From Alphaproteobacteria bacterium (GTDB taxonomy: Bacteria > Pseudomonadota > Alphaproteobacteria > JANQMY01), in the NCBI GenBank assembly GCA_028289425.1, contig JANQPL010000004.1, positions 496,001 to 560,000 on the forward strand: a DNA stretch of 64,000 bases, given 5' to 3'. Shown piece by piece: positions 1 to 26,402 of the stretch. How positions within the stretch are numbered: the first letter of the stretch is position 1; each line of letters opens with the position of its first letter. The notes under the pieces were generated by a model. It did no database searches, was not told the origin of the DNA, and was given only the letters and a program-made list of their open reading frames with translations. The position numbers were made by a program, and so were the translations under genes.

Positions 1-804
1 GGTGGCGGGCGGCTCCGTGGTGTTCATCCAGGGCTGCAGTGTGGGCAGCTCCACCACATCGTTGTTGTACATATTGTCTTTGCGGTTATGGAGCGCGGCC
101 CAGTTGCGCACGTTCGCTTTGTCGACCCATTTCGCAATCTGCGCTGGGTCGCCGTATTTTTCGTGAAACTGCTTCAGGAAGTGCGCGGGCCGGTAAATGA
201 AAGGCGGCCGCGGCTGCGCCAACAGGCCTAAGAAGCGTGGGTTGGGTTTGTGCCAGCGATACTGAACGGTCAGGTCATCCAGGATCAGCACTTGCGGCTT
301 TTGGCCGTCGACCAGCAGGGCCACGGGCGGGCCCGCAGGCGACAGCTCAGGACTATTGGCAACGTCTTCCCAGAAGTATCTAAAGTCTTCAGCAGTAAAG
401 GGGTGGCCGTCCGACCAGCGGTGGCCGGGGCGCAGGTGAAACGTGTAGACCGCGCCGTCCGCTTCCACATCGACGGCCCGTAGAATATCGGGCTCCAGCT
501 CCAAATCTTCGTTGTAGCCCACCAGCCGGGCATAGCCGTAGACCACCATGTAGCGGATATCTTTCGACCGGCTGACCATGGTGCGCAGGGTGCCGCCATG
601 GTGGCCGTAAGACTTGCCTTGGGCTTCCAAATCGACCACCAGCGGCGTGAGCGGCACGCGGGCTTCCACGGGCGGCAGGTCGCCTGCGGCCACGCGCGCC
701 ACAAGGGCCGGCGTTTCTTCCAGCAAGAAGGCTTGGGCCACGTTGGGCATCAAACAGAGCAGTCCAATCAGCAGTATACGGAGGTTTAGGACAGACGACC
801 TCAT
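1..804 (-). CDS. Peptide ABC transporter substrate-binding protein (family 5), C-terminus cut by window edge
   Basis: Reading leftward from the ATG at 804 gives 267 open codons to the window edge, with no stop. The start overlaps the stop of the upstream ATPase gene as ATGA. Residues 1-25 form a signal peptide (MRSSVLNLRILLIGLLCLMP, then an AQA cleavage site). The mature part has the family-5 solute-binding pattern: GGTLRTM near residue 70, YARLVGYNEDLELEPDIL, and the motif YTFHLRPGHRWSDGHPFTAE. Such proteins bind oligopeptides or other solutes in the periplasm and deliver them to an ABC importer. Permease genes would be expected further left, outside the window. The substrate cannot be told. 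The C-terminal half is missing because of the window edge, not a mutation. Confidence 0.85.
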   Translation of the reverse strand, partial: MRSSVLNLRILLIGLLCLMPNVAQAFLLEETPALVARVAAGDLPPVEARVPLTPLVVDLEAQGKSYGHHGGTLRTMVSRSKDIRYMVVYGYARLVGYNEDLELEPDILRAVDVEADGAVYTFHLRPGHRWSDGHPFTAEDFRYFWEDVANSPELSPAGPPVALLVDGQKPQVLILDDLTVQYRWHKPNPRFLGLLAQPRPPFIYRPAHFLKQFHEKYGDPAQIAKWVDKANVRNWAALHNRKDNMYNNDVVELPTLQPWMNTTEPPAT

Positions 805-2660
805 GCACCACCCCCGCTCATGGCGACAAAATGATCGGGCGTTGTTTCGACCAAACCCTTTCCGCCGCCAAAGCCCGTAAAAGGGGCGGGCCACAAGGCC
901 GGGTCGTTGATCGGGTTGGCTGCCAGGGCCGCGAAATCGGACGGCTGGTCCGGATCGATGCTGGGAATCGCCGCCAGAAGCGACTTTGTGTAGGGGTGCG
1001 TCGGCTCCGAAAAGATTTTGTCGGCGGAGGCGATTTCCACCAGGCGCCCACCCACCATAACCGCCGCCCGGTCGGCGATATAGTGCACCACCCCCAGATT
1101 ATGGCTGATGAACAGGTAGGTAAGGCCCAGCTTTTCCTTGAGATCCATCATCAGATTGAGGATCTGGGCCTGGACCGACACATCAAGGGACGAGACGGGT
1201 TCGTCCAAGACCAGCACGTCTGGCTGAAGGGCCAAGGCACGGGCGAGGCAAATACGCTGGCGCTGGCCGCCCGAAAACGCATGGGGGTACCGGTTCATGC
1301 AGTTGGGGTTCAGGCCCACCATGCGCAAAAGTTCCGTTACCCGGTCCACTTGTTCCGTATACCCGCATATTCGGTGGATATCCAGCGGTTCGCGGACGAT
1401 GTCGCAGACCGTCATGCGCGGATTGAGCGAGGCAAACGGGTCCTGGAACACATACTGGATGCGCCGCCGATAATCTTTGAGCGCAGCCCCTTCCAACGAA
1501 AGGACCGATTGCGCCGTGCCGTCCCGGTTGAAGGTAATCTCGCCCGCATCCGGCCATACCGCCCGCATCAAGGCGCGGCACAGAGTGGTTTTGCCGCTTC
1601 CCGACCCGCCCACCAGGCCGAGGCATTCGCCCTTGAAAATCGATAGGGACACGTCGTCCAAGGCTTGGGTGCGGTCATCCGTGTCGGACGCGAACATGCC
1701 CTCGCTGCGCGGCCGAAACGATTTGCTGACGTTGCGAATCTCGATCAGAGGGGCATCGTGCCGGCCCGACTTGTGGCCCGATGTCCGATCGAAATAGGGG
1801 TTCAGACCCTGGGTTTCCTTGCCCATGGCGTCCAGCCGGTCGATGCCCGATCCCACAATGGGCACGGCCTTCAGCAGCCCCTTGAGATAGGGGTGACGGG
1901 GGTCTTTCAGGGCAGCGGCGCAGGGGCCGGCCTCCATCACTTCGCCCCGGTGCAGCACCACAATGCGATCGGCGATTTGGCTCACCACCCCCAAATCATG
2001 GGTGATCAGCAACACCGCCATGCCGAATTCCGCTTTCAATTCGGCGATGGTGTGCAAAATCTGCGCTTGCACCGTCATGTCGAGGGCTGTGGTCGGTTCG
2101 TCGGCGATCAGCAGCGCCGGCCGGCACACCATGGCCATGGCGATCAAGGCCCGCTGGCGCATGCCCCCCGACAATTCGAAGGGGTAGAGCCGATGGGCGT
2201 TGGCGGCATCGGCAAAACCCACCCGCTCCAGCATGGCGCAGGTCTTGTCCAACGCAGCCGTGCGGGTGACTTTTTCGTGCAGGCACACCACTTCGCTGAT
2301 TTGGTCGCCAATAGTGTGGACCGGCGACAGGGCCGACATGGGTTCCTGAAAAATCATTGCGATCTGCTGGCCGCGCAGTGCCCGGAATTCTTCGCCCTGA
2401 CGCCGCAGCTTTGCCAAATCGATCCGCATACCGCCATATTGACGGCTGTGGTACTGGATCTCGCCGCCCGTGATTTGGCCGTTTGACGGCAGCAAGCCCA
2501 TGATGGCGTTACCGATGGTGGATTTGCCCGACCCGGTCTCGCCCACCAGCGCCGTGGTCTGACCTTCCAGCACATCGAAGCTGACGCTTTCCACCGCCTG
2601 GGTTTGCCCCGCAGGGAGGCGGAAGGACACACTCAGATCCTTGATGGACAGGACCGCCAT
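801..2660 (-). CDS. Dipeptide-type ABC transporter ATP-binding protein, two fused ATPase domains
   Basis: 619 residues holding two complete nucleotide-binding domains, as in the GsiA/YejF type, where DppD- and DppF-like halves are fused. Domain 1 has Walker A GETGSGKS (40-47), signature LSGGMRQ (163-169) and Walker B DEPT (187-190). Domain 2 has GGSGSGKT, FSGGQRQR and LVLDEPVSSLD. All catalytic motifs are intact, unlike the exporter-like protein at 8776. The C-terminal HPYTKSLLAAIP segment is typical of oligopeptide importers. It would power uptake of whatever the binding protein at 1-804 captures. It starts 2 bases after the stop of the preceding membrane-protein gene and overlaps the next gene by 4 bases, so it looks co-transcribed with the glycosyltransferases upstream. 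Confidence 0.93.
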   Translation of the reverse strand: MAVLSIKDLSVSFRLPAGQTQAVESVSFDVLEGQTTALVGETGSGKSTIGNAIMGLLPSNGQITGGEIQYHSRQYGGMRIDLAKLRRQGEEFRALRGQQIAMIFQEPMSALSPVHTIGDQISEVVCLHEKVTRTAALDKTCAMLERVGFADAANAHRLYPFELSGGMRQRALIAMAMVCRPALLIADEPTTALDMTVQAQILHTIAELKAEFGMAVLLITHDLGVVSQIADRIVVLHRGEVMEAGPCAAALKDPRHPYLKGLLKAVPIVGSGIDRLDAMGKETQGLNPYFDRTSGHKSGRHDAPLIEIRNVSKSFRPRSEGMFASDTDDRTQALDDVSLSIFKGECLGLVGGSGSGKTTLCRALMRAVWPDAGEITFNRDGTAQSVLSLEGAALKDYRRRIQYVFQDPFASLNPRMTVCDIVREPLDIHRICGYTEQVDRVTELLRMVGLNPNCMNRYPHAFSGGQRQRICLARALALQPDVLVLDEPVSSLDVSVQAQILNLMMDLKEKLGLTYLFISHNLGVVHYIADRAAVMVGGRLVEIASADKIFSEPTHPYTKSLLAAIPSIDPDQPSDFAALAANPINDPALWPAPFTGFGGGKGLVETTPDHFVAMSGGGA

Positions 2661-3225: not shown

Positions 3226-4389
3226 TTACCGGTCTAATAGGCCCGCAGTGTCAATGGCGTGTTTGACAAGCGCCGCCGATTTTGCGCCCCCACCCAGACG
3301 AAACGGCGGATCTTCACGCAGAGGGTTTGTCAGGGCTTTGGTCATAGCAGCCAAAAGGCGCTGGGGCGACAGAGATTTTTCCTCTATCGCAACCGCGCGA
3401 CCCGCTGCTTCGAGGCACCCGGCCCTCAGACCCTGTTCTTTTTCGTCATGGCCGCTATAGGGCACCAGCACGGCCTTTGTGCCGCTGACGGCCAAATCCA
3501 CCACCGTATTGTATCCGGCTTGGCTCACGGACAGGGCGGCAGAGGCGAGGTCGCGCGCGAAATCCGGCGTAGCGGCGGAAACCGAGAAGGTGCCGGTCGC
3601 TTCAGCCCGCAGGCGGCGGGCGACCTCCTCAGGAAAGCTTGCCCCAAGTTTGACGTCCCAGTTCATGCCCAGCGACTCGAGTTGGTATGCGGCCCAAGCG
3701 GTCTCCACCAGCGGCCCGCCCGTCCGCCCGTGACCCGCTGAAATCACGATCCGCTTTGCACGCTGGGGCACAGTCTGGATTTTCGACCCTCCCACATAGC
3801 CGGTGTAGTGGATCTTTGGTTCGAGCTGAGAGGCTGACGGAAACGATAGGTCCAACGGCGCAAAGTCGTGGTCGCCATGGACGAGGATTGCGTCATAGTG
3901 AGAATTGGCCAGGTCAAGGAATCGGTTGGCTTTCTTTTCACTTTCCGGCGGCTCGATAATGTCTCGGACAGAGGCAAACAAAAGCGGCCGGGGATTTAGC
4001 GTCCGGCAGGCCTCCAAAAGAGGGAACAGTTCGAACATCAATTTTCCCCGCCCGAAGGGAAAGTGTTCCGTGAGCACCAGATGCGGGCGGAAGGACCGCA
4101 GATGCTCAAGCAACACATCCCGCCGCTTGGTGCGGAAGGCGTCGTCAATGGGGTTGCCCTCGCCGTCAATCAAGACCGAATAGGTGGTTCCCTGGGTGGT
4201 CACCGGCGGAAGCTGTACGAAGCGCACGGACTCCAAATCCAGGTCCCGGTGAGGCAACCCGCCCGATACCAGCATCACGTCCAAATCCAGGACGCTCATG
4301 GCGCGGGCCAGATCCGCCGCCCGCATCAAATGGCCGATCCCCATCAGATGCTGAACGTAGAGAAAGACTCGTGGCCGCATGAAAGGCAT
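3226..4389 (-). CDS. Predicted glycosyltransferase, COG4671/MurG-like fold
   Basis: 387 residues. The N-terminus VFLYVQHLMGIGHLMRAADL has the glycine-rich first loop of GT-B enzymes, with the xGIGHxxR pattern seen in the COG4671 predicted glycosyltransferases. The C-terminal half has ASAALSVSQAGYNTVVDLAV near residue 290, matching the donor-nucleotide loop (SxxGxNT) of MurG-like enzymes, followed by VPYSGHDEKEQ. It probably transfers a sugar from a nucleotide donor in a surface-glycan pathway; donor and acceptor are unknown. The ATG directly abuts the TAG of the phosphatase gene; a second Met three codons in (MRPRVFL) is an alternative start. A paralogue opens the same operon at 7360-8571. 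Confidence 0.85.
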   Translation of the reverse strand: MPFMRPRVFLYVQHLMGIGHLMRAADLARAMSVLDLDVMLVSGGLPHRDLDLESVRFVQLPPVTTQGTTYSVLIDGEGNPIDDAFRTKRRDVLLEHLRSFRPHLVLTEHFPFGRGKLMFELFPLLEACRTLNPRPLLFASVRDIIEPPESEKKANRFLDLANSHYDAILVHGDHDFAPLDLSFPSASQLEPKIHYTGYVGGSKIQTVPQRAKRIVISAGHGRTGGPLVETAWAAYQLESLGMNWDVKLGASFPEEVARRLRAEATGTFSVSAATPDFARDLASAALSVSQAGYNTVVDLAVSGTKAVLVPYSGHDEKEQGLRAGCLEAAGRAVAIEEKSLSPQRLLAAMTKALTNPLREDPPFRLGGGAKSAALVKHAIDTAGLLDR

Positions 4390-4983
4390 CTAAGATTTGC
4401 AATCGAGCGGCACGTTCATTTCCACAGGCCGCACCGCGCCATCGGGGGCCACATCGAATAGGTGGGCCGCTTGCCAGGTGAGTTTAATGGGCGCTTTGTT
4501 CATCATGTCCCAGTCATAAGCCAAGGCGAAGACGGCCCGTATCACCCCCTTATGGGTGACGGTGCCCACGGGCCTTTCCCGCGCCCCAATCTGTGCCAGA
4601 AACGGCTGAACACGCTCGATCACATCGGCGGGACTTTCCCCATTTGCGGGCCGGAAATGGCGTCCTTTTCCTTCATTCTCCAGAAACTTAGCTCCCAATT
4701 CCTCGCGCAGCTGCGCTGTTGTGTAGCCCTGCCAATCGCCCCAATCGGTCTCGATCAGCCGCTCTTCCGCAATGGCGTCGGAAATGCCCAACAGGCGCGC
4801 TGTTTGCCGTGCCCGGGCAAGCGGGCTCACAAACCATTGGGCGCCGGCCAGTGCCGGCGGCGGTGCGAGCTGCGCCAACTGCTGGTGCGCTTCTTCCGTA
4901 AGCGGAATATCTGCATGGCCTTGCATCTTGCCCAGCCGATTCCATTCAGTTTCGCCGTGACGGATCAGGCCGAGGAGCGGCAT
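4390..4983 (-). CDS. Histidine phosphatase family protein (phosphoglycerate-mutase-like)
   Basis: 197 residues. The N-terminal LIRHGETEWN contains the RHG motif whose histidine is phosphorylated in this superfamily. FVSPLARARQTARLLG supplies the second conserved arginine region, ERLIETDWGDWQGYT the third, and VTHKGVIRAVFALA the second catalytic histidine. This layout fits a cytoplasmic phosphomonoesterase of the PhoE/CobC type rather than glycolytic mutase. In this context it may remove phosphate from a sugar phosphate or other glycan precursor, which is inference from neighbours. The start lies inside the end of the upstream glycosyltransferase gene (19-base overlap), supporting translational coupling. 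Confidence 0.9.
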   Translation of the reverse strand: MPLLGLIRHGETEWNRLGKMQGHADIPLTEEAHQQLAQLAPPPALAGAQWFVSPLARARQTARLLGISDAIAEERLIETDWGDWQGYTTAQLREELGAKFLENEGKGRHFRPANGESPADVIERVQPFLAQIGARERPVGTVTHKGVIRAVFALAYDWDMMNKAPIKLTWQAAHLFDVAPDGAVRPVEMNVPLDCKS

Positions 4984-6104
4984 GCTTCTGCTTCCCGTGA
5001 GCTAAAGAGGCTCTCCCTCAATGCCGGCAACCGAGAGTCGAGAGACCTGTGCGCGAGGACAAACGACTCGGCGGCCCGGCCCATGCGGCGGCGGCGGTTC
5101 TTGTCTTCCAGCAGCGCCCGTAGTGCCTGGGCAAAGAGTTGGGAGGATGCGCCTTCCGCAAGAAATCCCGTCTCGTCGTGGCGGATCACCTCGGCAACGC
5201 CGGGGCCTTCGACCGCAACAGACGGCAGCGCCGCTGCCCCGGCCTCCAAATACGCCATGCCATAAGCCTCGCCCAGGCCCGGCCAGGCAAAGACATCGGC
5301 GGCGGCAAAAAAGTTATATAAATCAATGCCTTGAATGGCACCCAGGAAGGTAGTTCGGGACGCCATCGCGGCGAAATCTTGCTCAATCTCCGGTTTGCCC
5401 GGTCCATCACCGGCGATCACCAAATGCCAGTCCAGATCCGTCACATGGCCAAGGGCGGCTGCCAGCAGTCGATAACTTTCGCATTTCACGCCGGGCCGCA
5501 TCATGGCCGTACACAGAATAATAGGTCCCGTTGGGGGCCCCCCGATTGTCCTCCGTAGACGGTCTATTGCGGCCGCCCTGTCCTTGCGGGCCCGCTCGAA
5601 TGGTGATGGGTCGACAAAAGGCGGAAAGCGCTTGAGTTTGCGGTCAGAACCAAGGGCCTTGGCGAGGGGCCGCCAATCCTTCTCTTTCATGACGAACAGC
5701 CGGTCGGCCCGGTCGAATGAGCGTTTGGCATCCGCGAGCGCCTCGCGCCAGGGCGTATCGGTCTTGCTCGGCGCGTAAGAGGGTTCGAAGACCAGATACG
5801 GCATCCCCCAGGCTTGCTGCGCCAATGGTCCCAGCACGTCGGGGGATTTATAGTAGGAATGATAGGTCACCCACAGATCGGGCGGCGTCATCTCTCTGCA
5901 CTCTCGGGCCCATCGATCCAGAAGGCGGCATTTCTGTTCAGCATAGAGGGCCGGCTCCCCGTGATAGGACGAAAACCCGTCAACGACGTCCACGTCGCAG
6001 CCGACCTGCTGAAACGCCTGAACGAGCAGCCGCGCCATGGTGCGGTCGCCGGACGGCACGGGATGGTTGGGCGATTTCATGGGGGCGTAAAAGATTGCTC
6101 TCAT
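4965..6104 (-). CDS. Glycosyltransferase family 4 type protein
   Basis: 379 residues with a two-domain GT-B layout. The N-terminus MRAIFYAPMKSPNHPVPSGD carries the acceptor-side loop with PxSGDR, and the C-terminal domain has the donor-binding pattern FAWPGLGEAYGMAYLEAGAA, where E-x7-E-like glutamates contact the nucleotide sugar. IILCTAMMRPGVKCESYRLL is the start of the Rossmann-like donor domain. It probably adds a sugar to a lipid-linked or polymer acceptor at the inner membrane. The start overlaps the upstream GT4 gene by 4 bases (ATGA) and the end overlaps the phosphatase gene by 19. Substrates cannot be predicted. Confidence 0.9.
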   Translation of the reverse strand: MRAIFYAPMKSPNHPVPSGDRTMARLLVQAFQQVGCDVDVVDGFSSYHGEPALYAEQKCRLLDRWARECREMTPPDLWVTYHSYYKSPDVLGPLAQQAWGMPYLVFEPSYAPSKTDTPWREALADAKRSFDRADRLFVMKEKDWRPLAKALGSDRKLKRFPPFVDPSPFERARKDRAAAIDRLRRTIGGPPTGPIILCTAMMRPGVKCESYRLLAAALGHVTDLDWHLVIAGDGPGKPEIEQDFAAMASRTTFLGAIQGIDLYNFFAAADVFAWPGLGEAYGMAYLEAGAAALPSVAVEGPGVAEVIRHDETGFLAEGASSQLFAQALRALLEDKNRRRRMGRAAESFVLAHRSLDSRLPALRESLFSSREAEACRSSA

Positions 6105-7363
6105 GCCGCCGCCTCATTTTGGCGGGCCGGTTGCTGCGCCGTGGCACCGAACAGGGCTGCCAATCGGCCGATATGGGCCGGTAGCAGAAAATGCTCTTCC
6201 ACGCGGCGCTGGGCAGCGGCGCCGAGCCCTTGACGAAAGGTGGCGTCATCCACAAGCCGTTTGATCGCGCCGCTCACGGCCTCAGGATTTTCGGGCAGCA
6301 CCAGCAGTCCGTTTTCGCCGGGAATGATGAGTTCCGGGATCCCCCCGATGTCGGAGGCGATACAGGCCATGCCCTGGGATTGGGCCTCCAGCAGCACATT
6401 TGGCAGCCCGTCCTGATCGCGGTTCTGGGCGCGGCGGGACGGCAGAACGAACAAGTGATGGCTGCGATAGGCGTCCAACAACTCTTCCTGCGGGGCGGCG
6501 CCGCACCAAGTGATCCTGTCTTCAAGGCCAAGCTGCGCGGCAAGCCGTGATAGCTTTGCCGCTTCCGGTCCGGCGCCGTAATGGGTCCATCGCCAATCAA
6601 GATCATCGGGCAGCAGGGCGAGCGCCTGCAGCAAGATATCGAAACCCTTTTTGGGAACCAGTCTGCCTACGGATAAAATTCGTACGGGCAATGCTTTTAG
6701 GGCGGAGGCCGTCTTTGGCGCCGGGAACCGGTCGGGATCGAGCCCGTGATAGACCAGGTGGAGTTTGGCAGGATCGGCGCCGGTCGCGCAGCGCTGCAGG
6801 TCGGCAAGCCCCTCCCGGGTGCAGGTCACCCCGAAGGCGGCATCGGCAATCTTGGCTGTTTTCTCCCAATTTTTTGTGGTCCAGATGTCTTTTGCATGGG
6901 CCGAAAAACTGAACGGCAATTGCCGCATGACGGCCGCATAGCGTGCCACCGAACAGGGTGTGTGGAGAAAATGAGCGTGGATGTGCGCCGTGTCTTCCGG
7001 CAGCTCGGCGGCCAACACCAGGGCCTGTCCGAACCGGCGTAAGCGATTTGGTGTCGGATCCCGCAAAAGATCGTACACGAACTTTTTGCGTGTCGCCGCA
7101 TACCCTGGCAAGCGCCGCGCTACGCGCCGGGCGCGCCACACCCGGCCCGGGTCATCTCTTAGGTACTCCGGCAGGTAGGTGGCCCGTGCACGAATTCGAC
7201 CGTGAAAGGCGCTGACGGCCTTGTCGGTGGGATGGCGTAGGGAATAGAGATCGATGTCCAGTCCTAACCGCTCGAGCGCCAGCACTTCTTGGGCAATGAA
7301 GGATTCGGACAGGCGCGGCCAGCCCTTAACCACCACGGCGATTTTCTGCGGCGTGCCCATCAT
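6101..7363 (-). CDS. Glycosyltransferase family 4 (group 1) protein
   Basis: About 420 residues. I place the start at the ATG 7363, which overlaps the upstream stop as ATGATG and gives the normal N-terminus MMGTPQKIAVVVKGWPRLSE; a longer reading to 7459 adds 32 residues unlike the family. WPRLSESFIAQEVLALERLG is typical of GT4 enzymes of the colanic/exopolysaccharide type. VRILSVGRLVPKKGFDILLQ starts the donor domain, and DGLPNVLLEAQSQGMACIAS holds the E-x7-E motif. Expected role: retaining sugar transfer in surface polysaccharide or glycolipid assembly. It overlaps both neighbours by 4 bases and so belongs to the operon. Confidence 0.92.
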   Translation of the reverse strand: MMGTPQKIAVVVKGWPRLSESFIAQEVLALERLGLDIDLYSLRHPTDKAVSAFHGRIRARATYLPEYLRDDPGRVWRARRVARRLPGYAATRKKFVYDLLRDPTPNRLRRFGQALVLAAELPEDTAHIHAHFLHTPCSVARYAAVMRQLPFSFSAHAKDIWTTKNWEKTAKIADAAFGVTCTREGLADLQRCATGADPAKLHLVYHGLDPDRFPAPKTASALKALPVRILSVGRLVPKKGFDILLQALALLPDDLDWRWTHYGAGPEAAKLSRLAAQLGLEDRITWCGAAPQEELLDAYRSHHLFVLPSRRAQNRDQDGLPNVLLEAQSQGMACIASDIGGIPELIIPGENGLLVLPENPEAVSGAIKRLVDDATFRQGLGAAAQRRVEEHFLLPAHIGRLAALFGATAQQPARQNEAAA

Positions 7364-8571
7364 GCGGGGCGCGCATAGGCCTGCACGCCGGTGGAAGGGC
7401 CGATCCACGGGGCGGCCAAGTCCGCGATGCCGTCCAAGCCGTCCAGCATGGTGGGCCACATGCGCTCCGAGGGCAGTCGCCCGCTTGTGAGTTGGCGCAA
7501 TTCATCGGCCAGGCTGTCTTTGTCGGCGCGCGCAGGGTGGGCATCGTTCCAATGAACGCGCATGCGCAGCAGGCCCAGCGCTTGGGCTCGCTCCGCCCGA
7601 ATGAATTGCTCCCGCCGGGGGGCCGTCCGGGGCACCATCAGGCAGGGCTTATCCCGGGACAGCATCTCGGAAAAGGTGTTGTAGCCCCCCATGGTCACCA
7701 GGCCCGCGGCCGTTTCTTCTGAAAGCTCAATGTGCGGGTCGAAGGTTTTGATCTTGAGGCGCGCATCGCCGGCTGCCCGTTCGATGGCGCTTTGTTGATC
7801 CGCCAGGGGCATGAAGGGCCCGGTGACGATCAAGGCCGGCGGCAGGTCCCGGTCATGGTCGGCATATGTGTCCAGAACCCAATTGATCAGTGGGCTGCCG
7901 TCACCGCCACCGCCCGCCATGACCAAGATAAACGGGTCGTCGAAGGGCCGCTTGGGCTTGGTGGCGGCACCATTGCCGATCCGCCGTCTCAAATATCCGG
8001 TAAACGCAGATTTTTCACGGACCCCGGCGGGCAGCTTCAAATCGGTGAGCGGATCGTAGAACCGGCGTTCGCCGAAGATCCAAATGTCATGGTAAAGCGA
8101 CTCAAGGGCGTGGAAGGCCTTCTTCCGGGCCCATTCCCGCTGCAAGCGGTCGGGGGAATCGAGAATGTCGCGCAAGCCCAGCACCAGCCGGGTGCCGTGG
8201 GCGCGGGCCCACGCCAATGCCGGGGCCACTTCCCCCCGAAGCCCCAGCGGCTCCTTGTCCACCAAAAACATATGGGGGCGGAATTGTTGGGTTGCTTGTT
8301 TAATCAGGGCCGTCCGCAGCCCGATGATTTTGTCGATATCGCCGCCGGGATCGTGGGGCGCATAGCTGCCATCGGCGGTTTTGGTGACCCCCGGTACGCG
8401 CAGGAAATCCACATTCTTCCGAAACGAAAATCGCCCCACCAAAGGGGAGCCGGAAATGATCAGCACAGAAAGATCCTGCCAGCGCCGTACCAGATCGTGT
8501 GCGATCGTCCGGCATCGTCTTAAATGGCCTAGTCCGAAAGAATCGTGGCTATAGATCAATAAACGGCGCAT
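7360..8571 (-). CDS. Predicted glycosyltransferase, COG4671 type, first gene of the operon
   Basis: 403 residues. MRRLLIYSHDSFGLGHLRRC has the GLGHLRR loop of this family, and LVTMGGYNTFSEMLSRDKPC near residue 305 is the donor-loop region (GGYNT in place of GGxNT). LVLGLRDILDSPDRLQREW resembles the central segment of COG4671 proteins. It is the promoter-proximal gene of a leftward operon of at least eight genes; all downstream junctions are overlaps or gaps of 2 bases or less. It is paralogous to 3226-4389, so the cluster holds two enzymes of this uncommon type plus two GT4 enzymes. The exact sugar is unknown. Confidence 0.87.
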   Translation of the reverse strand: MRRLLIYSHDSFGLGHLRRCRTIAHDLVRRWQDLSVLIISGSPLVGRFSFRKNVDFLRVPGVTKTADGSYAPHDPGGDIDKIIGLRTALIKQATQQFRPHMFLVDKEPLGLRGEVAPALAWARAHGTRLVLGLRDILDSPDRLQREWARKKAFHALESLYHDIWIFGERRFYDPLTDLKLPAGVREKSAFTGYLRRRIGNGAATKPKRPFDDPFILVMAGGGGDGSPLINWVLDTYADHDRDLPPALIVTGPFMPLADQQSAIERAAGDARLKIKTFDPHIELSEETAAGLVTMGGYNTFSEMLSRDKPCLMVPRTAPRREQFIRAERAQALGLLRMRVHWNDAHPARADKDSLADELRQLTSGRLPSERMWPTMLDGLDGIADLAAPWIGPSTGVQAYARPA

Positions 8572-8775: not shown

Positions 8776-11511
8776 ATGGAACAAGGCATTTTTCCATATA
8801 TTTGGCGCCACAGCCGACGCGAACAGCTCACGGTCCTGATGATCGTGCTGGCGTCGCTGCCGTTCTATTTCATGTCGCTGTCCCTGCCCAAGACGATCGT
8901 GAATGAGGCGATCGAAGGCAAAAGCTTTGAGTACGCCGACGACACCGCGCCCGCCCTAAAGATCACCCTCCCGGCGCCCGACGCCTGGTCCGACGGCAGC
9001 GGCCAGTGGGTGCTATTCGACGGGTTCGAATTGGAACGCACAGGCTTCTTGTTCGCCATGAGTTTCGTGTTCCTGGGCCTTGTTTGCATCAACGGCCTCT
9101 TCAAGTTCCAGATCAACACCATGAAAGGGCGCATGGGGGAGCGTTTGCTGCGCCGGCTGCGCTATCAGTTGGTGGACCGGGTACTGCGCTTTCACCCCAC
9201 CCAGTTCCGGCGGGTCAAGCAATCGGAAGTGGCCACGATGGTGACGTCGGAGGTGGAGCCTCTGGGCGGCTTCATCGGCGATGCCTATGTGCAACCGGCT
9301 TTCTTGGGCGGCCAGGCCCTGACCGCCCTGCTGTTCATCGTTGTGCAGAGCGTTTGGCTCGGCATGGTGGCGATTGCGGTCGTTCTCATCCAGTCGTTTT
9401 TGATCCCGCGCTTGCGCGTGCCCATTCTTCAGCTGGGCAAACAGCGCCAATTGGCCGCGCGGGATTTGGCCGGCAAAATCGGCGAAATCGTCGATGGGGC
9501 GGCGGCAATACATGTGCACGATACGTCGAATTACGAACGGTCGGACATCACCCGGCGCCTCGGCATCATCTACCGCATCCGGTACGAGCTTTACCGGCGG
9601 AAGTTCTTCGTCAAGTTTCTCAACAATTTCTTGGGCCAGTTCACGCCGTTCCTGTTCTACATCATCGGCGGATACTTCGCGATCCAAGGCACCATGGATG
9701 TGGGCTCGGTAGTGGCGGCGCTGCTCGCCTATAACCAGCTGCCCGCACCCGTCCGTGATCTGATCAATTGGGACCAGCAGCGCTTGGATGTGCAGATCAA
9801 ATACGAACAGGTCATTCAGCAATTCAATCCGGACAATATTTTGGACGATGCGCTTCAGCAGCCCTCGGACGGTCCGCCGGAGCCTTTGGGCGGCGACCTG
9901 ACCTTTGCCAATGTCTCGGTGGTGGACGATACGGGCGCCCGGCTGCTGGACCATGTATCGTTCACGGCCCCACTTCATGAAAGCGTGGCCGTGGTGGGGG
10001 ATTCTGGCTCAGGCAAAGAGTTCCTGGGTATGGCGCTCGCCCGCCTGATCGAGCCCTCTACCGGGCGCATCACCATCGGCGAGAAGGACCTGTCGCGCCT
10101 GCCGGAATCGGTAACCGGCCGCCGCTTGGGCTATGCGGCTCAGGATTCGGTCGTCTTCCCAGGCTCAATCCGGGACAATGTGCTTTACGGGCTCAAGCAT
10201 CAGCCAATCGCTGCTCCCGCGCCAGATGCGATGGACGAGCGGCAACGGCAGTTTGAAGAAATAGAAATTGCACGGTCGGGCAACGCGCCTTTCGATTTCG
10301 ATGCGGATTGGGTTGATTATGAGGCTCTAGGCCTTTCCACGGCGGACGATGTGGATCAACGCATCCTGGATACGTTTCAAATGGTGGATTTGGCCGACGA
10401 CGTCTTTGCCTATGGCTTGCGCGGTATCATTGACGTCGAAGAGAACGCGCATCTGGCGGACCTTATTCTGGAGGCCCGCCGCAAGCTGCGTGGCCAAATG
10501 GCCGATGCCCAAATTGCCCAATTGATCGAGCCGTTCGACCCCCATCTTTACAACCGCAATGCCACCGTTGCGCAGAACTTGATGTTCGGCACGCCACTGG
10601 ATGACCGGCTGAAGACCGATGCGTTGGCGTCAAACGCCTACATGCTGCAGACGATCCGCGGCGCGGGGCTTGAACAGACCCTCATCGATATGGGCTATGA
10701 GCTAGCGGAAACCATGGTCGAATTGTTCCGGGATATTCCGCCGGACCATCCCTTCTTCGACCAATTCAGTTTTATCGCGGCCGACGAATTGCCGCTCTAT
10801 CAGGATTTGTTGATGCGCACGCCGCTCTCCGATGGGCGGGTCTATCTGGATGCCATCAGCGGCGAAGATCATGAGCGGTTTTTGACGCTGCCGTTCAACT
10901 ATATCGAGGCGCGCCATCGCCTGGATCTGGTGAACGAAGACATGCAGGAAAAGCTCCTGTCGGCGCGCCGCCTTTTTCGTCAAAACCTGCCCGGCGAGCT
11001 CAACGATGCGGTCGCCTTCTTCGATCCCGAAACCTACAACCGCGCCGCCACCATTCAGGACAATGTGCTGATGGGGCGGATCGCTTATGGCCAGCCCCGC
11101 GCGCAAGAGCAAGTGCGGCTGGTGGCCCGCAATATTCTGCGCGAGATCGGGCTGGAGCTTGAAATCTTCCGGGTGGGGCTTGAATTTCAGGTGGGCAGCG
11201 CGGGCCGGCGGCTGACCGGTGCTCAGCGGCAAAAGCTGGGGGTGGCCCGCGCACTCATTAAGAATCCCGACTATCTGGTGGTGAATCTGGCACTGGCTGC
11301 GCTGGATCAAGGCAGCCAAGGCAAAATTCTGCAACAAGTGTTAGAAGCGCGAGACGATAAGGGCGTTTTTTGGATCGTGGCGCGCCCATCCATGTCCATC
11401 GGCTTTGACCGGGTGCTGGTGATGGATGGCGGGCGGCTGGTGGAACAGGGCATGCCGGAAGATTTGGCGAATCGTAAGAGTGAATTTGAGAAACTAAAGG
11501 CCTACGGATGA
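8776..11511 (+). CDS. ABC exporter-like protein with degenerate nucleotide-binding site and a ~330-residue insertion
   Basis: 911 residues. The N-terminal half looks like an ABC exporter membrane domain: helices near 18-36, 90-110, 176-208 and 285-305, with MGERLLRRLRYQLVDRVL as the usual coupling segment. From about residue 373 an ABC ATPase domain follows, but key residues differ. Walker A is GDSGSGKE (408-415), with Glu where Ser/Thr binds Mg. Walker B reads LVVNLALAALD (834-844), lacking both the Asp and the catalytic Glu. The switch histidine is replaced in FWIVARPSMS (Arg870). Gln456 of the Q-loop and a signature-like LTGAQRQ (813-819) remain. Between Q-loop and signature about 330 residues replace the usual ~60. 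It is followed by a cNMP-binding gene. ATP hydrolysis looks unlikely; nucleotide binding or a structural role is possible. No frameshift is seen and the frame is clean throughout. Confidence 0.85.
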   Translation: MEQGIFPYIWRHSRREQLTVLMIVLASLPFYFMSLSLPKTIVNEAIEGKSFEYADDTAPALKITLPAPDAWSDGSGQWVLFDGFELERTGFLFAMSFVFLGLVCINGLFKFQINTMKGRMGERLLRRLRYQLVDRVLRFHPTQFRRVKQSEVATMVTSEVEPLGGFIGDAYVQPAFLGGQALTALLFIVVQSVWLGMVAIAVVLIQSFLIPRLRVPILQLGKQRQLAARDLAGKIGEIVDGAAAIHVHDTSNYERSDITRRLGIIYRIRYELYRRKFFVKFLNNFLGQFTPFLFYIIGGYFAIQGTMDVGSVVAALLAYNQLPAPVRDLINWDQQRLDVQIKYEQVIQQFNPDNILDDALQQPSDGPPEPLGGDLTFANVSVVDDTGARLLDHVSFTAPLHESVAVVGDSGSGKEFLGMALARLIEPSTGRITIGEKDLSRLPESVTGRRLGYAAQDSVVFPGSIRDNVLYGLKHQPIAAPAPDAMDERQRQFEEIEIARSGNAPFDFDADWVDYEALGLSTADDVDQRILDTFQMVDLADDVFAYGLRGIIDVEENAHLADLILEARRKLRGQMADAQIAQLIEPFDPHLYNRNATVAQNLMFGTPLDDRLKTDALASNAYMLQTIRGAGLEQTLIDMGYELAETMVELFRDIPPDHPFFDQFSFIAADELPLYQDLLMRTPLSDGRVYLDAISGEDHERFLTLPFNYIEARHRLDLVNEDMQEKLLSARRLFRQNLPGELNDAVAFFDPETYNRAATIQDNVLMGRIAYGQPRAQEQVRLVARNILREIGLELEIFRVGLEFQVGSAGRRLTGAQRQKLGVARALIKNPDYLVVNLALAALDQGSQGKILQQVLEARDDKGVFWIVARPSMSIGFDRVLVMDGGRLVEQGMPEDLANRKSEFEKLKAYG

Positions 11512-11557
11512 CGAACAGTCGGAACAATAAGACGGCCGAAGATCTGGGAGTAGTGTG

Positions 11558-12019
11558 ATGAGCATTAAGCAAGAAGTTGATTTGCTGCGCCGTATTCCCC
11601 TGTTTGAGAACATCGATCTGGCAAAGATCAAATTGCTGGCTTTTGCCAGCGAACGCATCTGTTTCGAACAGGGCCACGAAATGTGCCGCCAGGGCGAAAT
11701 CGGCGATGCGGCCTATGTGATCATCGACGGCGAAGCGGAGGTGTCGGTGGAAGGCGACAAGGGGTCAACGGTTGTCGCCACCTTGGGCAAAAACGCCTTT
11801 GTGGGCGAGATTTCGATCCTCACCGACGTACCGCGCACGGCCACCGTCACGGCCAAGACCAAGGTCGAAGCACTGCGTATCACCAAGGAATTGTTCTATC
11901 GAATGATCTCCGAATTTCCCCAGATGGGGCTCGAGATCATGCGGGTCCTTTCCATGCGCCTTGCCGACACCACCCGCGACTTGACCGAAGCGCGGGCGAA
12001 GCTGAACACCACGGGATAA
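11558..12019 (+). CDS. Stand-alone cyclic-nucleotide-binding domain protein
   Basis: 153 residues from the ATG at 11558, which has GGGAG 7 bases upstream; a GTG one codon earlier is a weaker choice. The fold pattern is that of CRP/PKA-type cNMP domains: LLRRIPLFENIDLAKIKLLA, then GDAAYVIIDGEAEVSVEG, then the phosphate-binding cassette FVGEISILTDVPRTATVTA, whose Glu and Arg are the residues that hold the ribose and phosphate. No DNA-binding helix-turn-helix follows, so it is a sensor-type module rather than a transcription factor. It starts 46 bases after the degenerate ABC protein and is probably co-transcribed, suggesting that it partners or regulates that protein. Confidence 0.9.
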   Translation: MSIKQEVDLLRRIPLFENIDLAKIKLLAFASERICFEQGHEMCRQGEIGDAAYVIIDGEAEVSVEGDKGSTVVATLGKNAFVGEISILTDVPRTATVTAKTKVEALRITKELFYRMISEFPQMGLEIMRVLSMRLADTTRDLTEARAKLNTTG

Positions 12020-21983: not shown

Positions 21984-23402
21984 GTGATCGAGATCTTCGA
22001 TGAGATGGGAGGGGAAGTGGCGTGCCGGCCCCACTACCGCCAGATCCTGGAATGGCTGAACGAGACCCCGACGGATCTGCTTGAAGCCAAGCGCCGCGAG
22101 GCGGAGATATTGTTCCGGCGTATCGGTATTACCTTTGCCGTCTATGGCGAAGGAGGCGACCCGGAACGGCTCATTCCCTTCGACATTATCCCGCGCGTCA
22201 TTTCAGCGGCCGAATGGGCGTTTCTCTCCAAAGGGCTGGAGCAACGTGTCCGTGCCTTGAACGCTTTTACGTGGGACGTCTATCACGAGCAGGAGATCAT
22301 CAAGGCGGGGCACATCCCGCCGGAACTGGTGCTGCACAATGAATCGTTCTGCGCTGAAATGCAGAACTTGAATGTGCCCGGGCGCATCTACAATCACATT
22401 TCAGGCATTGATTTGGTGCGCGTGGGTGAAAACGATTTCTACGTGCTTGAAGACAATTGCCGGGTGCCGTCGGGTGTTTCATATATGTTGGAAGACCGCG
22501 AAGTGATGATGCGCCTGTTCCCGGACTTGTTTTCCATGCATGACATCGCGCCGATTGCTCAGTATCCGGAGATATTGCTTGAGACGCTGCATTCAATCGC
22601 GCCGCGGCCGTCAGTGGCGGACCCGACGGTTGTTTTGCTTACGCCGGGCGCCTTCAATTCCGCCTATTATGAGCATTGCTTCCTGGCGGACGAAATGGGC
22701 ATCGAATTGGTTGAAGGCCCCGACTTGTTTGTCGATCACAACGTAGTCTACATGCGCACGACCCGGGGGGCGAAGCGTGTCGACGTCATTTATCGGCGCA
22801 TCGATGACGCCTTTATCGATCCGTTGACCTTCCGTGCCGACAGTGTGCTTGGGGTGCCCGGATTAATGGGCGCCTACCGAAGCGGCAACGTGGCCATCGC
22901 CAATGCGGTGGGCGCCGGTATTGCCGACGACAAATCGATCTACATCTATGTGCCTGAGATGGTGCGCTTCTATTTGGGTGAAGAGCCTATCCTCAAAAAC
23001 GTGCCCACCTTCAACTGCGACGATGCCGACGACCGCGCCTATGTGCTGGAGCATGTGGACGAATTGGTGGTGAAAGAGGCGCGGGGATCCGGCGGTTACG
23101 GCATGCTGGTAGGACCGAAGGCCACAAAAGATCAGTGTGAAGAGTTCAAGAAGCGCATTGTCAAGACGCCTGGCGAATACATTGCGCAGCCCACCTTGGC
23201 GCTGTCGACGGTGCCCACATTCGTGGATTCCGGGGTTGCACCCCGGCATGTGGATTTGCGGCCCTTTATTTTGCAAGGCGCCGACGGCATCAAGATTGCG
23301 CCGGGGGGGCTCACCCGGGTGGCCCTACGCGAAGGATCGTTGGTGGTAAATTCAAGCCAAGGGGGCGGCACCAAAGACACTTGGGTCCTGGTAAGCCGTT
23401 GA
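21984..23402 (+). CDS. Circularly permuted ATP-grasp protein of the Anbu operon (COG2308)
   Basis: 472 residues. The only usable start is GTG 21984 (MIEIFDEMGGEVACRPHYRQ), since an in-frame stop lies at 21948; no strong ribosome site is seen. The family hallmarks are present: LEAKRREAEILFRRIGITFA VYGEGGDPERLIPFD, FYVLEDNCRVPSGVSYMLED and ELVVKEARGSGGYGMLVGP, with the ATP-grasp lysine and glycine loop. Members probably ligate an amine to a carboxylate using ATP. The next three genes (alpha-E, transglutaminase-like, Anbu) are the standard partners of this protein. The reaction product is not known. Confidence 0.93.
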   Translation: MIEIFDEMGGEVACRPHYRQILEWLNETPTDLLEAKRREAEILFRRIGITFAVYGEGGDPERLIPFDIIPRVISAAEWAFLSKGLEQRVRALNAFTWDVYHEQEIIKAGHIPPELVLHNESFCAEMQNLNVPGRIYNHISGIDLVRVGENDFYVLEDNCRVPSGVSYMLEDREVMMRLFPDLFSMHDIAPIAQYPEILLETLHSIAPRPSVADPTVVLLTPGAFNSAYYEHCFLADEMGIELVEGPDLFVDHNVVYMRTTRGAKRVDVIYRRIDDAFIDPLTFRADSVLGVPGLMGAYRSGNVAIANAVGAGIADDKSIYIYVPEMVRFYLGEEPILKNVPTFNCDDADDRAYVLEHVDELVVKEARGSGGYGMLVGPKATKDQCEEFKKRIVKTPGEYIAQPTLALSTVPTFVDSGVAPRHVDLRPFILQGADGIKIAPGGLTRVALREGSLVVNSSQGGGTKDTWVLVSR

Positions 23403-23403
23403 T

Positions 23404-24345
23404 ATGCTCTCACGTTCCGCAAACAATCTGTTTTGGCTGACCCGCTATATGGAGCGCGCCGAATATGTTGCGCGTCTGATCGAAACGGCGATCCGCCTGA
23501 CCAGTATGTCGAAATCGGTCCAGGCTGGCATGAATGAATGGCATTCCATTTTGGAAGCGTCCGGATGCGAAGAAAGCTACTACGAAAAGCATGAGAAAGT
23601 GTCCGCGCGGGCGGTCATTGACCACCTCTTGCGCGACCGCTCCAACCCGTCATCGGTTTTGTCGTGCTTCGAAACGGCCCGCCATAATGGGCGCACGGAA
23701 CGCACCAGCCTATCGAACGACATTTGGGAAGCGGTCAATCAAACGTGGCACGAGGCGCGTCAGCTCACGGACAAGGATTTCACAAGCGACGGGGTGCGCG
23801 GCGTTCTTGACTGGACCAAGAACCGATCGCTTTTGTTTCGCGGTGCCGTTTCGTCCACCATGCTGCGCAATGAGGCCTATTGGTTCGCGAGGCTGGGGCT
23901 TTTCCTGGAACGCGCGGACAATACGGCGCGCATCTTGGACGTAAAATATCACACGCTTCTGCCCAGCCCCGACGAAGTGGGGGGCGGCTTGGACTATGTG
24001 CAATGGACAGCGATCCTGCGGTCGGTGTCGGCGGCGCGGGCCTATCACCGGATCTATCACCGGGAGCTGAAACCGTGGCTGATCGCGGAGCTTTTAATTC
24101 TACGTCCGGAAATGCCTCGGTCGCTTATGGCCTGTATGAATGAGATGATCTATCTTCTCGATTTGCTGGGACGGGAACTGGGCCATGAAGGGGAATGCTC
24201 GCGGCTCGCGGGCCAGCTTCATTCCAAGCTTCGATATGGCCGCATTGACGATATCATCCAACAAGGCCTACACGAATTCCTGACGGATTTCATTGACGAC
24301 AGCGTGGTGCTCGGAAACGAAATTTCGCAGCAATACCTGACCTGA
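23404..24345 (+). CDS. Alpha-E domain protein (COG2307)
   Basis: 313 residues, almost entirely helical. MLSRSANNLFWLTRYMERAE and VARLIETAIRLT are the conserved opening of the alpha-E family, RNEAYWFARLGLFLERADNT ARILDVKYH repeats the same helix pattern with the invariant glutamates, and LNMDRTNPRS-like SLSNDIWEAVNQTWHE segments occur between. It starts 1 base after the ATP-grasp stop. In known operons it always travels with the ATP-grasp and transglutaminase-like proteins, so it is likely a partner subunit in the same peptide-modifying pathway. Confidence 0.94.
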   Translation: MLSRSANNLFWLTRYMERAEYVARLIETAIRLTSMSKSVQAGMNEWHSILEASGCEESYYEKHEKVSARAVIDHLLRDRSNPSSVLSCFETARHNGRTERTSLSNDIWEAVNQTWHEARQLTDKDFTSDGVRGVLDWTKNRSLLFRGAVSSTMLRNEAYWFARLGLFLERADNTARILDVKYHTLLPSPDEVGGGLDYVQWTAILRSVSAARAYHRIYHRELKPWLIAELLILRPEMPRSLMACMNEMIYLLDLLGRELGHEGECSRLAGQLHSKLRYGRIDDIIQQGLHEFLTDFIDDSVVLGNEISQQYLT

Positions 24346-24356
24346 TTGACCTCTCT

Positions 24357-25175
24357 ATGCGAATCCGCGTTACCCACAAAACGATTTATCGGTATGACAC
24401 GCCCATCGATTTTTCGTTCCAGGCCATTCGCCTAACGCCGCAACCCTTCATTGGGCAGCGCGTTCTGTCCTGGCGCGTGCGTGAAGAAGATGAGGGTGTT
24501 TTGCCCAATTACATGGACGGTTTTCAGAATGTGGTAAGCCTGCTGACACTGTTGCGCGAACATGAAGAAGCGCAGGTGACGGCGGAAGGGGTTGTCGACG
24601 TCTCGGATCAAAAAGGGATCATCAATGGGGCGCCCGAACCATTGCCGATTCTGTATTTCCTGCGCCAGTCGCCACGAACGGCAATCAGCGACGCGTTGAA
24701 ATCACTGGCATCCGCTGTCGACGGGACCGATCCGGTGTTGCAGCTCCACGATCTGATGAACTGTATCCACAAGCAAGTGCGCTATGACACGCAGGCGACC
24801 CACGTGCAGACGACCGCGACCCAGGCGCTGGAAGCCGGCGCCGGCGTCTGCCAGGACCACGCGCACATCTTTATCGCTTGTGCCCGGGCGCTTGGTTTTC
24901 CGTCCCGCTACGTCTCCGGCTACCTGCTGTCCAGCGAACCGGGGCGGGAAGAAACCTTCGAAGCGAGTCACGCGTGGGCCGAATCCTACATTGAACGAGT
25001 CGGCTGGGTAGGCTTCGACCCGGCCAATCAGGTTTGCCCGACCGATCAATACATTCGAACAGCCGTCGCCCTTGATTATGACGGCGCCGCGCCGGTTCGC
25101 GGCGTGTGGCGCGGCAAGGCCGAGGAATCACTTGCGGTCACCGTGTCGGTTCAGCAAACTGGCGCCGATCAATAA
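24357..25175 (+). CDS. Transglutaminase-like cysteine peptidase (COG1305)
   Basis: 272 residues. The N-terminal beta domain MRIRVTHKTIYRYDTPIDFS FQAIRLTPQ is typical of bacterial transglutaminase-like proteins. The catalytic triad is visible: Cys165 in GAGVCQDHAHIF, His205 in EASHAWAESY and Asp221 in GWVGFDPAN. No signal peptide is present, so it acts in the cytoplasm like its partners. It probably cleaves or forms an amide bond in a peptide made or modified by the ATP-grasp and alpha-E proteins. It is 11 bases downstream of the alpha-E gene and 18 upstream of Anbu. Confidence 0.95.
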   Translation: MRIRVTHKTIYRYDTPIDFSFQAIRLTPQPFIGQRVLSWRVREEDEGVLPNYMDGFQNVVSLLTLLREHEEAQVTAEGVVDVSDQKGIINGAPEPLPILYFLRQSPRTAISDALKSLASAVDGTDPVLQLHDLMNCIHKQVRYDTQATHVQTTATQALEAGAGVCQDHAHIFIACARALGFPSRYVSGYLLSSEPGREETFEASHAWAESYIERVGWVGFDPANQVCPTDQYIRTAVALDYDGAAPVRGVWRGKAEESLAVTVSVQQTGADQ

Positions 25176-25193
25176 GACTGAGTCGGAAAAACC

Positions 25194-25934
25194 ATGACAT
25201 ATTGCGTTGGCCTGCGCCTGAAAGACGGTCTGGTCATGTTGGCAGATACGCGCACCAATGCCGGTGTCGACAATATTGCCACTTTCAAAAAAAGCCATTT
25301 GTTTCAGATCGACGGCGACCGCATGATCTGCGCCATGACATCGGGCAATCTCGCCATCACGCAGGCTGTGATTAATCTGCTGTCGGATGGATTTGAGAGT
25401 GCTTTCTCCGGCGAACAAGAATCCCTTTTCACCGTAACCTCCATGTTTCGCGCGGCGGAGCTTGCAGGTGAGGCGGTGCGCCGGGTCTATCAGCGCGACG
25501 GCGATGCCCTGGAACAGCAGGACATGACGTTTAGCTGCGGTCTTTTGATCGGCGGCCAAATCAAAGGCCGCGGCATGCGCCTGTTTCAAGTTTATTCCGC
25601 GGGCAACTTTATCGAAGCCACGGAAGACACACCCTTCCTGCAAATCGGCGAACACAAATATGGTAAGCCCATATTGGATCGGGCGTGCAATTTCGAAACC
25701 GGTCTCAATGACGGTGTGAAACTTTCGCTGATCTCCATGGATTCGACCTTGCGCTCTAATCTGACGGTGGGCATGCCGCTCGACTTGGTCGTTTACAAGA
25801 AGGACCAGGACGGCCCTCCCTTGTGCCGGCGCATCGAAGAGGATGATGTCTATTTCCAAACGATTCGCGACAGCTGGTCCAACGCCCTGCGCGATGCCTA
25901 CCGCGCCATTCCCGTGGCCGATTGGTTGAGTTAG
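25194..25934 (+). CDS. Anbu, proteasome-type protease homologue (COG3484)
   Basis: 246 residues. It belongs to the Ntn-hydrolase proteasome/HslV superfamily; Thr2 after the initiator Met would be the nucleophile (MTYCVGLRLKDGLVMLADTR TNAG). LEQQDMTFSCGLLIGGQIKG, MRLFQVYSAGNFIEATEDTP and LNDGVKLSLISMDSTLRSNL are conserved Anbu segments. Anbu forms helical or ring assemblies and lacks a dedicated unfoldase. Its physiological substrate is not established. The gene closes the four-gene cluster with ATP-grasp, alpha-E and transglutaminase-like proteins. A possible terminator follows at 25983, then a cNMP-binding gene. Confidence 0.95.
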   Translation: MTYCVGLRLKDGLVMLADTRTNAGVDNIATFKKSHLFQIDGDRMICAMTSGNLAITQAVINLLSDGFESAFSGEQESLFTVTSMFRAAELAGEAVRRVYQRDGDALEQQDMTFSCGLLIGGQIKGRGMRLFQVYSAGNFIEATEDTPFLQIGEHKYGKPILDRACNFETGLNDGVKLSLISMDSTLRSNLTVGMPLDLVVYKKDQDGPPLCRRIEEDDVYFQTIRDSWSNALRDAYRAIPVADWLS

Positions 25935-26027: not shown

Positions 26028-26402
26028 ATGAGTGCTCAGCTTGAAAACCTCCTGACACAGATGGACGGTCAAACATATCGTCCCGGCGACACGATTTTTG
26101 CCGAGGGAGACGATGGCGACTGCTTGTACGTCATCCGGAGCGGCGAAGTTGAAATCGAATTTCATGGGACGGTTCTGGAGCAACTCGGCCCGTCGGATAT
26201 ATTTGGGGAAATGGCTCTGATCGATCATGCCCCGCGCAGCGCCACGGCCAAGGCGAAGACCGAGTGCACACTGTCTGTGCTGCGGCAACGCGATTTCCTG
26301 TTGATGGTCGACCAAGTGCCCTATTTCGCCATTAACGTGATGCGCACCTTAACGCAAAGGTTGCGTTTGATGAACGATCACGCGACGACGAAGCAATCTT
26401 AA
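26028..26402 (+). CDS. Stand-alone cyclic-nucleotide-binding domain protein
   Basis: 124 residues and a single cNMP-binding domain: YRPGDTIFAEGDDGDCLYVI RSGEVEIEF, then the phosphate-binding cassette IFGEMALIDHAPRSATAKAK with the Glu and Arg that hold the cyclic phosphate. The C-terminal helix is INVMRTLTQRLRLMNDHAT. There is no DNA-binding domain. It lies 93 bases after Anbu on the same strand and may share its transcript by read-through. This is the second such single-domain sensor in the window (the first is at 11558); they are related in design but not close copies. Confidence 0.9.
   Translation: MSAQLENLLTQMDGQTYRPGDTIFAEGDDGDCLYVIRSGEVEIEFHGTVLEQLGPSDIFGEMALIDHAPRSATAKAKTECTLSVLRQRDFLLMVDQVPYFAINVMRTLTQRLRLMNDHATTKQS

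Follow-up and report, generated by a model that had tools for sequence, protein, structure and literature searches.

A gene at 8776-11511 on the forward strand of the window, the whole 64,000-nucleotide stretch of DNA that was analysed, encodes an ABC exporter-like membrane protein of 911 amino acids with a type IV exporter fold, which is an ABC exporter by descent and, judged by the residues that define an ATPase, not a functional one. It belongs to a family of ATPase-dead type IV exporters in Alphaproteobacteria that appears not to have been described before. The pair formed by the ABC protein and a small cyclic-nucleotide-binding domain (CNBD) protein is the constant core of the system and a glycan locus is its usual setting. 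We consider it probable that the ABC protein is an ATPase-dead exporter homodimer under cyclic-nucleotide control through its CNBD subunit, and that in the main clade it serves a glycosyltransferase locus.

The gene is a single clean frame, as originally claimed, running from an ATG start to a TGA stop. Its GC content by codon position (0.65/0.37/0.74) is coding-like, and 200 shuffles of the region produced no stop-free run longer than 306 codons, compared to the 911 codons of the frame. Both exporter components were matched by Pfam: ABC_membrane (PF00664) at residues 94-322 (E 3.7e-15), and ABC_tran, which is split into two pieces, with PF00005 at residues 391-497. The AlphaFold2 model (pLDDT 86.5, pTM 0.80) has helices at residues 5-46, 88-138, 196-240, 251-304 and 325-349 of the transmembrane domain (TMD; residues 1-345, 8776-9810). 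A structure search with this model returned type IV exporters, with TmrAB and TM287/288 among the best and SUR2 also present; together with the ABC_membrane homology, these matches identify an exporter TMD. The fold of the nucleotide-binding domain (NBD) is complete, since the predicted domain superposes on the NBD of ComA (3vx4) with a Z score of 30.9 and 1.8 A over 239/239 residues.

The nucleotide site was aligned with those of four canonical exporters encoded by the same genome, all of which have intact motifs. In the first part of the NBD (residues 372-477, 9889-10206), which holds the A-loop, Walker A and Q-loop, the A-loop Tyr has become Asp and the Walker A motif GPSGAGKS reads GDSGSGKE (residues 408-415, 9997-10020), departing from the GxxxxGK[ST] pattern, while the Q-loop Gln is retained. 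In the second part (residues 801-905, 11176-11490), the signature LSGGE reads LTGAQ (residues 813-817, 11212-11226), which does not fit the LSGGQ pattern; Walker B LLLLDE reads YLVVNL (residues 833-838, 11272-11289), with Asn for Asp and Leu for Glu; the D-loop ALD is retained; and the switch motif IAHR reads IVAR (WIVAR at residues 866-870, 11371-11385), its His being absent. The original prediction had correctly given the GKE ending of Walker A and the Asn and Leu of Walker B, and had rightly seen that a Q-loop, a signature-like motif and membrane helices remain, but it was mistaken in reading the switch His as Arg: that position is Ala (residue 869), and the Arg is residue 870, the conserved neighbour that follows the missing His.

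A scan of GTDB genomes yielded 80 relatives, nearly all labelled alphaproteobacterial. The gene is present in 148 of 387 sampled Alphaproteobacteria genomes, mostly as a single copy, and 28 genomes had a match in a phylum-wide sample of 299, 27 of them within Alphaproteobacteria. Its carriers include Sinorhizobium meliloti and Azospirillum, and frames of about 875-930 aa are intact throughout the class. Four hallmarks were counted in 110 family proteins: Walker A GK[ST] occurs in five, LSGGQ in none, Walker B Asp and Glu together in three and the switch His in 14, such that the full set is found in no protein and 92 lack every one of them. One relative (L084) comes from a metagenome-assembled genome (MAG) titled Gammaproteobacteria (Cca_20), representing either transfer beyond the class or a mislabelled MAG. 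SMb20813, an msbA homologue according to PMC10945364, may be the S. meliloti copy. The homologue on pSymB of S. meliloti 1021 (L168, 841723-844432) is broken over two reading frames, and in several other S. meliloti records it is matched as two pieces; in RCAM1750 (CP050512) it is one frame.

A 323-aa insertion (residues 478-800, 10207-11175), absent from the original prediction, separates the Q-loop from the signature. An exporter half is normally about 580 aa long, and the insertion is the reason why this protein has 911. By profile-profile comparison, it holds two further modules of Q-loop, NxxFG motif and helical segment: copy 2 (residues 583-606, 10522-10593), in which N601, F604 and G605 are invariant in the family, and copy 3 (residues 743-768, 11002-11079), where the motif is NxLxG and N763, L765 and G767 are invariant. 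The hhalign E-values are 8.7e-16 for copies 2 and 3, 9e-7 for copies 1 and 2 and 1.7e-6 for copies 1 and 3, pairwise values that are strong rather than exact. Modelled alone, the insertion reaches a pLDDT of 92.3, and a Foldseek search of the PDB and BFVD with this model found no match with an E-value under 0.4 (the best in the PDB was at E 0.58). The sole PDB sequence match, CpcN (E 1.7e-4), was rejected because it adds up weak matches to linker repeats that are not significant singly, and a Pfam match to TMEM131 fell under its cut-off. At loci L123, L124 and L129-L131 the profile match breaks near residues 475-525, where the insertion starts, and this junction seems variable in length. Five genomes of a single taxonomic family (L161-L165, f59) carry a dead NBD with this insertion (profile match at residues 525-884) and a membrane domain too diverged for a good match; here the unit of NBD and insertion may have been joined to a different TMD.

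The second component, likewise missing from the original prediction, begins about 40 bp downstream of the ABC gene and is a protein of 154 aa (11555-12019, forward strand, starting at GTG 11555 or ATG 11558) that matches PF00027 (E 8.5e-20). A CNBD homologue is the next gene on the same strand at 78 of 82 loci, the gap between the two having a median of 30 bp. The partner is assigned to the CNBD proteins by PF00027 and by a conserved phosphate-binding cassette, G-E-...-R-[ST]-A, in which Gly, Arg and Ala are each present in 78/78 homologues and Glu in 74/78. PF00027 alone reaches its cut-off and no helix-turn-helix was detected by Pfam, so that the protein appears to lack the C-terminal DNA-binding domain that characterizes Crp/Fnr regulators. 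In 12 distant relatives the ABC protein carries the CNBD as a C-terminal fusion, some of these fused copies having degenerate cassettes. Adjacency and fusion provide strong genomic evidence that the ABC protein and the CNBD form one complex. Elsewhere in the window, a second small CNBD-like protein was recognized by eye at 26028-26402 (forward strand; cassette FGEMALIDHAPRSATAKA); its gene follows four consecutive genes on the same strand (21984-25934), which resemble genes for ATP-grasp-like, alpha-E, transglutaminase-like and proteasome-type protease proteins.

Throughout the main clade, the window included, the ABC gene stands opposite a conserved glycosyltransferase cluster. In the window this divergent cluster (3226-8571, reverse strand) comprises four glycosyltransferases, at 7360-8571, 6101-7459, 4965-6104 and 3226-4389, with homologues at 73, 69, 66 and 72 of the family loci, respectively. 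A histidine phosphatase within the cluster (4390-4983) recurs less often, as does a polysaccharide deacetylase found at main-clade loci. Fused clades are mostly devoid of these glycosyltransferases in the few kb examined, and hence the connection with glycans does not extend to the whole family. The cluster has at its far end a peptide-importer-type double ATPase gene (801-2660, reverse strand) with intact Walker motifs, homologues of which occur near 38 family loci.

The conserved linkage to glycosyltransferases would also suit a membrane scaffold or regulator of these enzymes that transports nothing and whose ABC fold is a platform for the CNBD; the large insertion is a possible protein-protein interface and the protein has no energy source. 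We regard this as rather unlikely, given that conservation is highest in the TMD (mean column identity 0.58 against 0.37-0.47 elsewhere), which suggests selection on the membrane path itself.

We think it unlikely that the NBD binds ATP without hydrolysis, as a static or regulatory sensor resembling the degenerate site of heterodimeric exporters. The complete NBD fold is in keeping with such a role, as are the invariant P-loop glycines G408 and G413 and a D-loop Asp that is present in 76 of 82 aligned family proteins; the glycines, together with a Walker A Lys in 51/82, leave room for weak nucleotide binding. However, that Lys is not conserved, the A-loop aromatic residue is replaced by a conserved Asp or Glu in 57/58 proteins, the Walker A Ser/Thr position is acidic (E/D) in 72/82, the Walker B Asp is Asn in 65/82, and LSGGQ is absent family-wide. 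Nucleotide sensing, one of the roles put forward in the original prediction, is thus disfavoured for the protein's own pocket, where the A-loop, the Walker A hydroxyl, the Walker B Asp and the signature Gly-Gly have been lost.

Partnership with another ABC half, also proposed originally, fares worse. There are known heterodimeric exporters in which one half is degenerate, and TmrAB and TM287/288 rank among the best structural matches, so a non-catalytic half could pair with a canonical half that supplies the ATPase. Known degenerate halves retain most motifs, whereas this family has lost the composite site on both sides, and a full-length canonical exporter half lies nearby at a single one of the 82 loci; we therefore judge such pairing to be improbable.

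Adenylate or guanylate cyclases account for five of the 35 genes scanned immediately 3' of the partner. The fused copy L136 has a CHASE2-cyclase at a distance of about 28 bp, a CHASE3-cyclase adjoins the TMD-diverged copy L165, a third cyclase adjoins L137, and on a Mesorhizobium plasmid two cyclases and a DUF3095 gene occur in the vicinity of the locus. The genome of the window contains 11 matches to PF00211, the class III cyclase family, although none was found next to the ABC gene. A metallo-beta-lactamase-fold gene (PF12706) occurs near the CNBD gene at L170, L026, L038, L041 and L042, and two neighbour genes at distant loci match the model of the cyclic-nucleotide phosphodiesterase Apyc1; a phosphodiesterase of the system is possibly to be found among these metallo-beta-lactamase neighbours. 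The main-clade genes of this type that were tested match only PF12706/PF00753, and we do not claim that role for them. Cyclase adjacency in some clades, and matches of the PADLOC models PycC and PycTIR to the cyclases and the CNBD, recall a Pycsar-like anti-phage system of cyclase and CNBD effector, with the ABC protein as membrane effector. This is very improbable: the PADLOC matches span generic cyclase and CNBD domains alone, most loci have no adjoining cyclase, and the family, usually present once per genome, is spread widely through its class in a recurrent genomic context, unlike patchy defence genes.

Among close family pairs dN/dS is 0.02-0.2 overall and far below 1 in every region; between the window gene and its nearest relative it is 0.09. 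Codon-level selection is accordingly purifying, and on the evidence of these sequences the gene is under selection and its ATPase is not. Since the loss is common to the homologues and purifying selection is strong, the gene appears to have been kept for another job, in agreement with the original prediction. Of the jobs proposed there, a channel or fixed gate is still a possible one; the insertion, the CNBD partner and the fusions, none of which it described, point to control by cyclic nucleotides. Decay, whether of a single copy among intact homologues under relaxed selection or as a pseudogene or annotation artefact, would account for the lost catalytic residues but is scarcely credible in view of the family-wide loss, the low dN/dS in all regions and the intact frames across the class.

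In the mechanism that we favour, that of a dead exporter under cyclic-nucleotide control, the protein would most likely be a homodimer in the usual exporter architecture, in which the normal ATP sandwich would be neither formed nor hydrolysed and no ATP would be productively bound. The cytoplasmic part, enlarged by the two module copies, would act as a docking and relay platform. The CNBD subunit would bind cAMP, cGMP or a similar nucleotide produced by class III cyclases and would switch the membrane domain between states; the partnership comes from genomics, while the gating is what we infer from it. Because the protein lacks a working ATPase, whatever it transports would move passively or draw its energy from another component. 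The position of the main clade at a conserved glycosyltransferase locus indicates, from context alone, that what is controlled is probably either the synthesis of a precursor of an envelope glycan or glycolipid or its passage or scrambling. We advance more tentatively the possibility that the exporter has become a channel gated by cyclic nucleotides, or a scramblase of lipid-linked glycans, that works independently of ATP; the messenger of a class III cyclase would then replace ATP as controlling ligand, and the tandem, triplicated helical module would be the new regulatory interface.

Type IV exporters (MsbA, TmrAB, Sav1866, ComA/PCAT1) have the same TMD and complete NBD fold and are the best profile and structure matches of the protein, but they keep the A-loop aromatic residue, Walker A Ser/Thr, signature Gly-Gly, Walker B Asp-Glu and switch His that are lost here, while the 323-aa insertion and the CNBD partner are features of this family. 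CFTR (ABCC7) and SUR1/2 (ABCC8/9) are exporter folds turned channel or channel regulator; they are eukaryotic and ATP-gated, and retain one or more competent ATP sites. The likeness to them lies in the repurposed exporter fold and is an analogy of mechanism only, for the protein contains no competent half with which to build a composite site of their type, neither site of the homodimer would be functional, and a cyclic nucleotide is the probable ligand. Pycsar and related CNBD effectors share the combination of class III cyclase, CNBD and membrane effector, but this family has no fixed cyclase pairing, is class-wide and lies outside a defence context. CNBD-regulated channels and exchangers have the same nucleotide-binding domain, and in fused members it is likewise at the C-terminal cytoplasmic end, although the membrane part here is an ABC exporter TMD-NBD and not a channel pore domain. 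No earlier description of the family was found in the open-access full text searched, and there is a real chance that the family is mechanistically new.

These results correct the labels 'ABC transporter ATP-binding protein' and 'Crp/Fnr transcriptional regulator' carried by these genes. ABC exporters are textbook ATP engines, to which CFTR and SUR are the best-known exceptions; here, a large bacterial family appears to be free of ATP chemistry and to have a cyclic-nucleotide sensor as its constant partner, offering a system for studying how ABC folds shed energy coupling and acquire ligand control. To our knowledge, the class III cyclases of Alphaproteobacteria are numerous and have few known targets, and the family would supply them with a concrete membrane effector.
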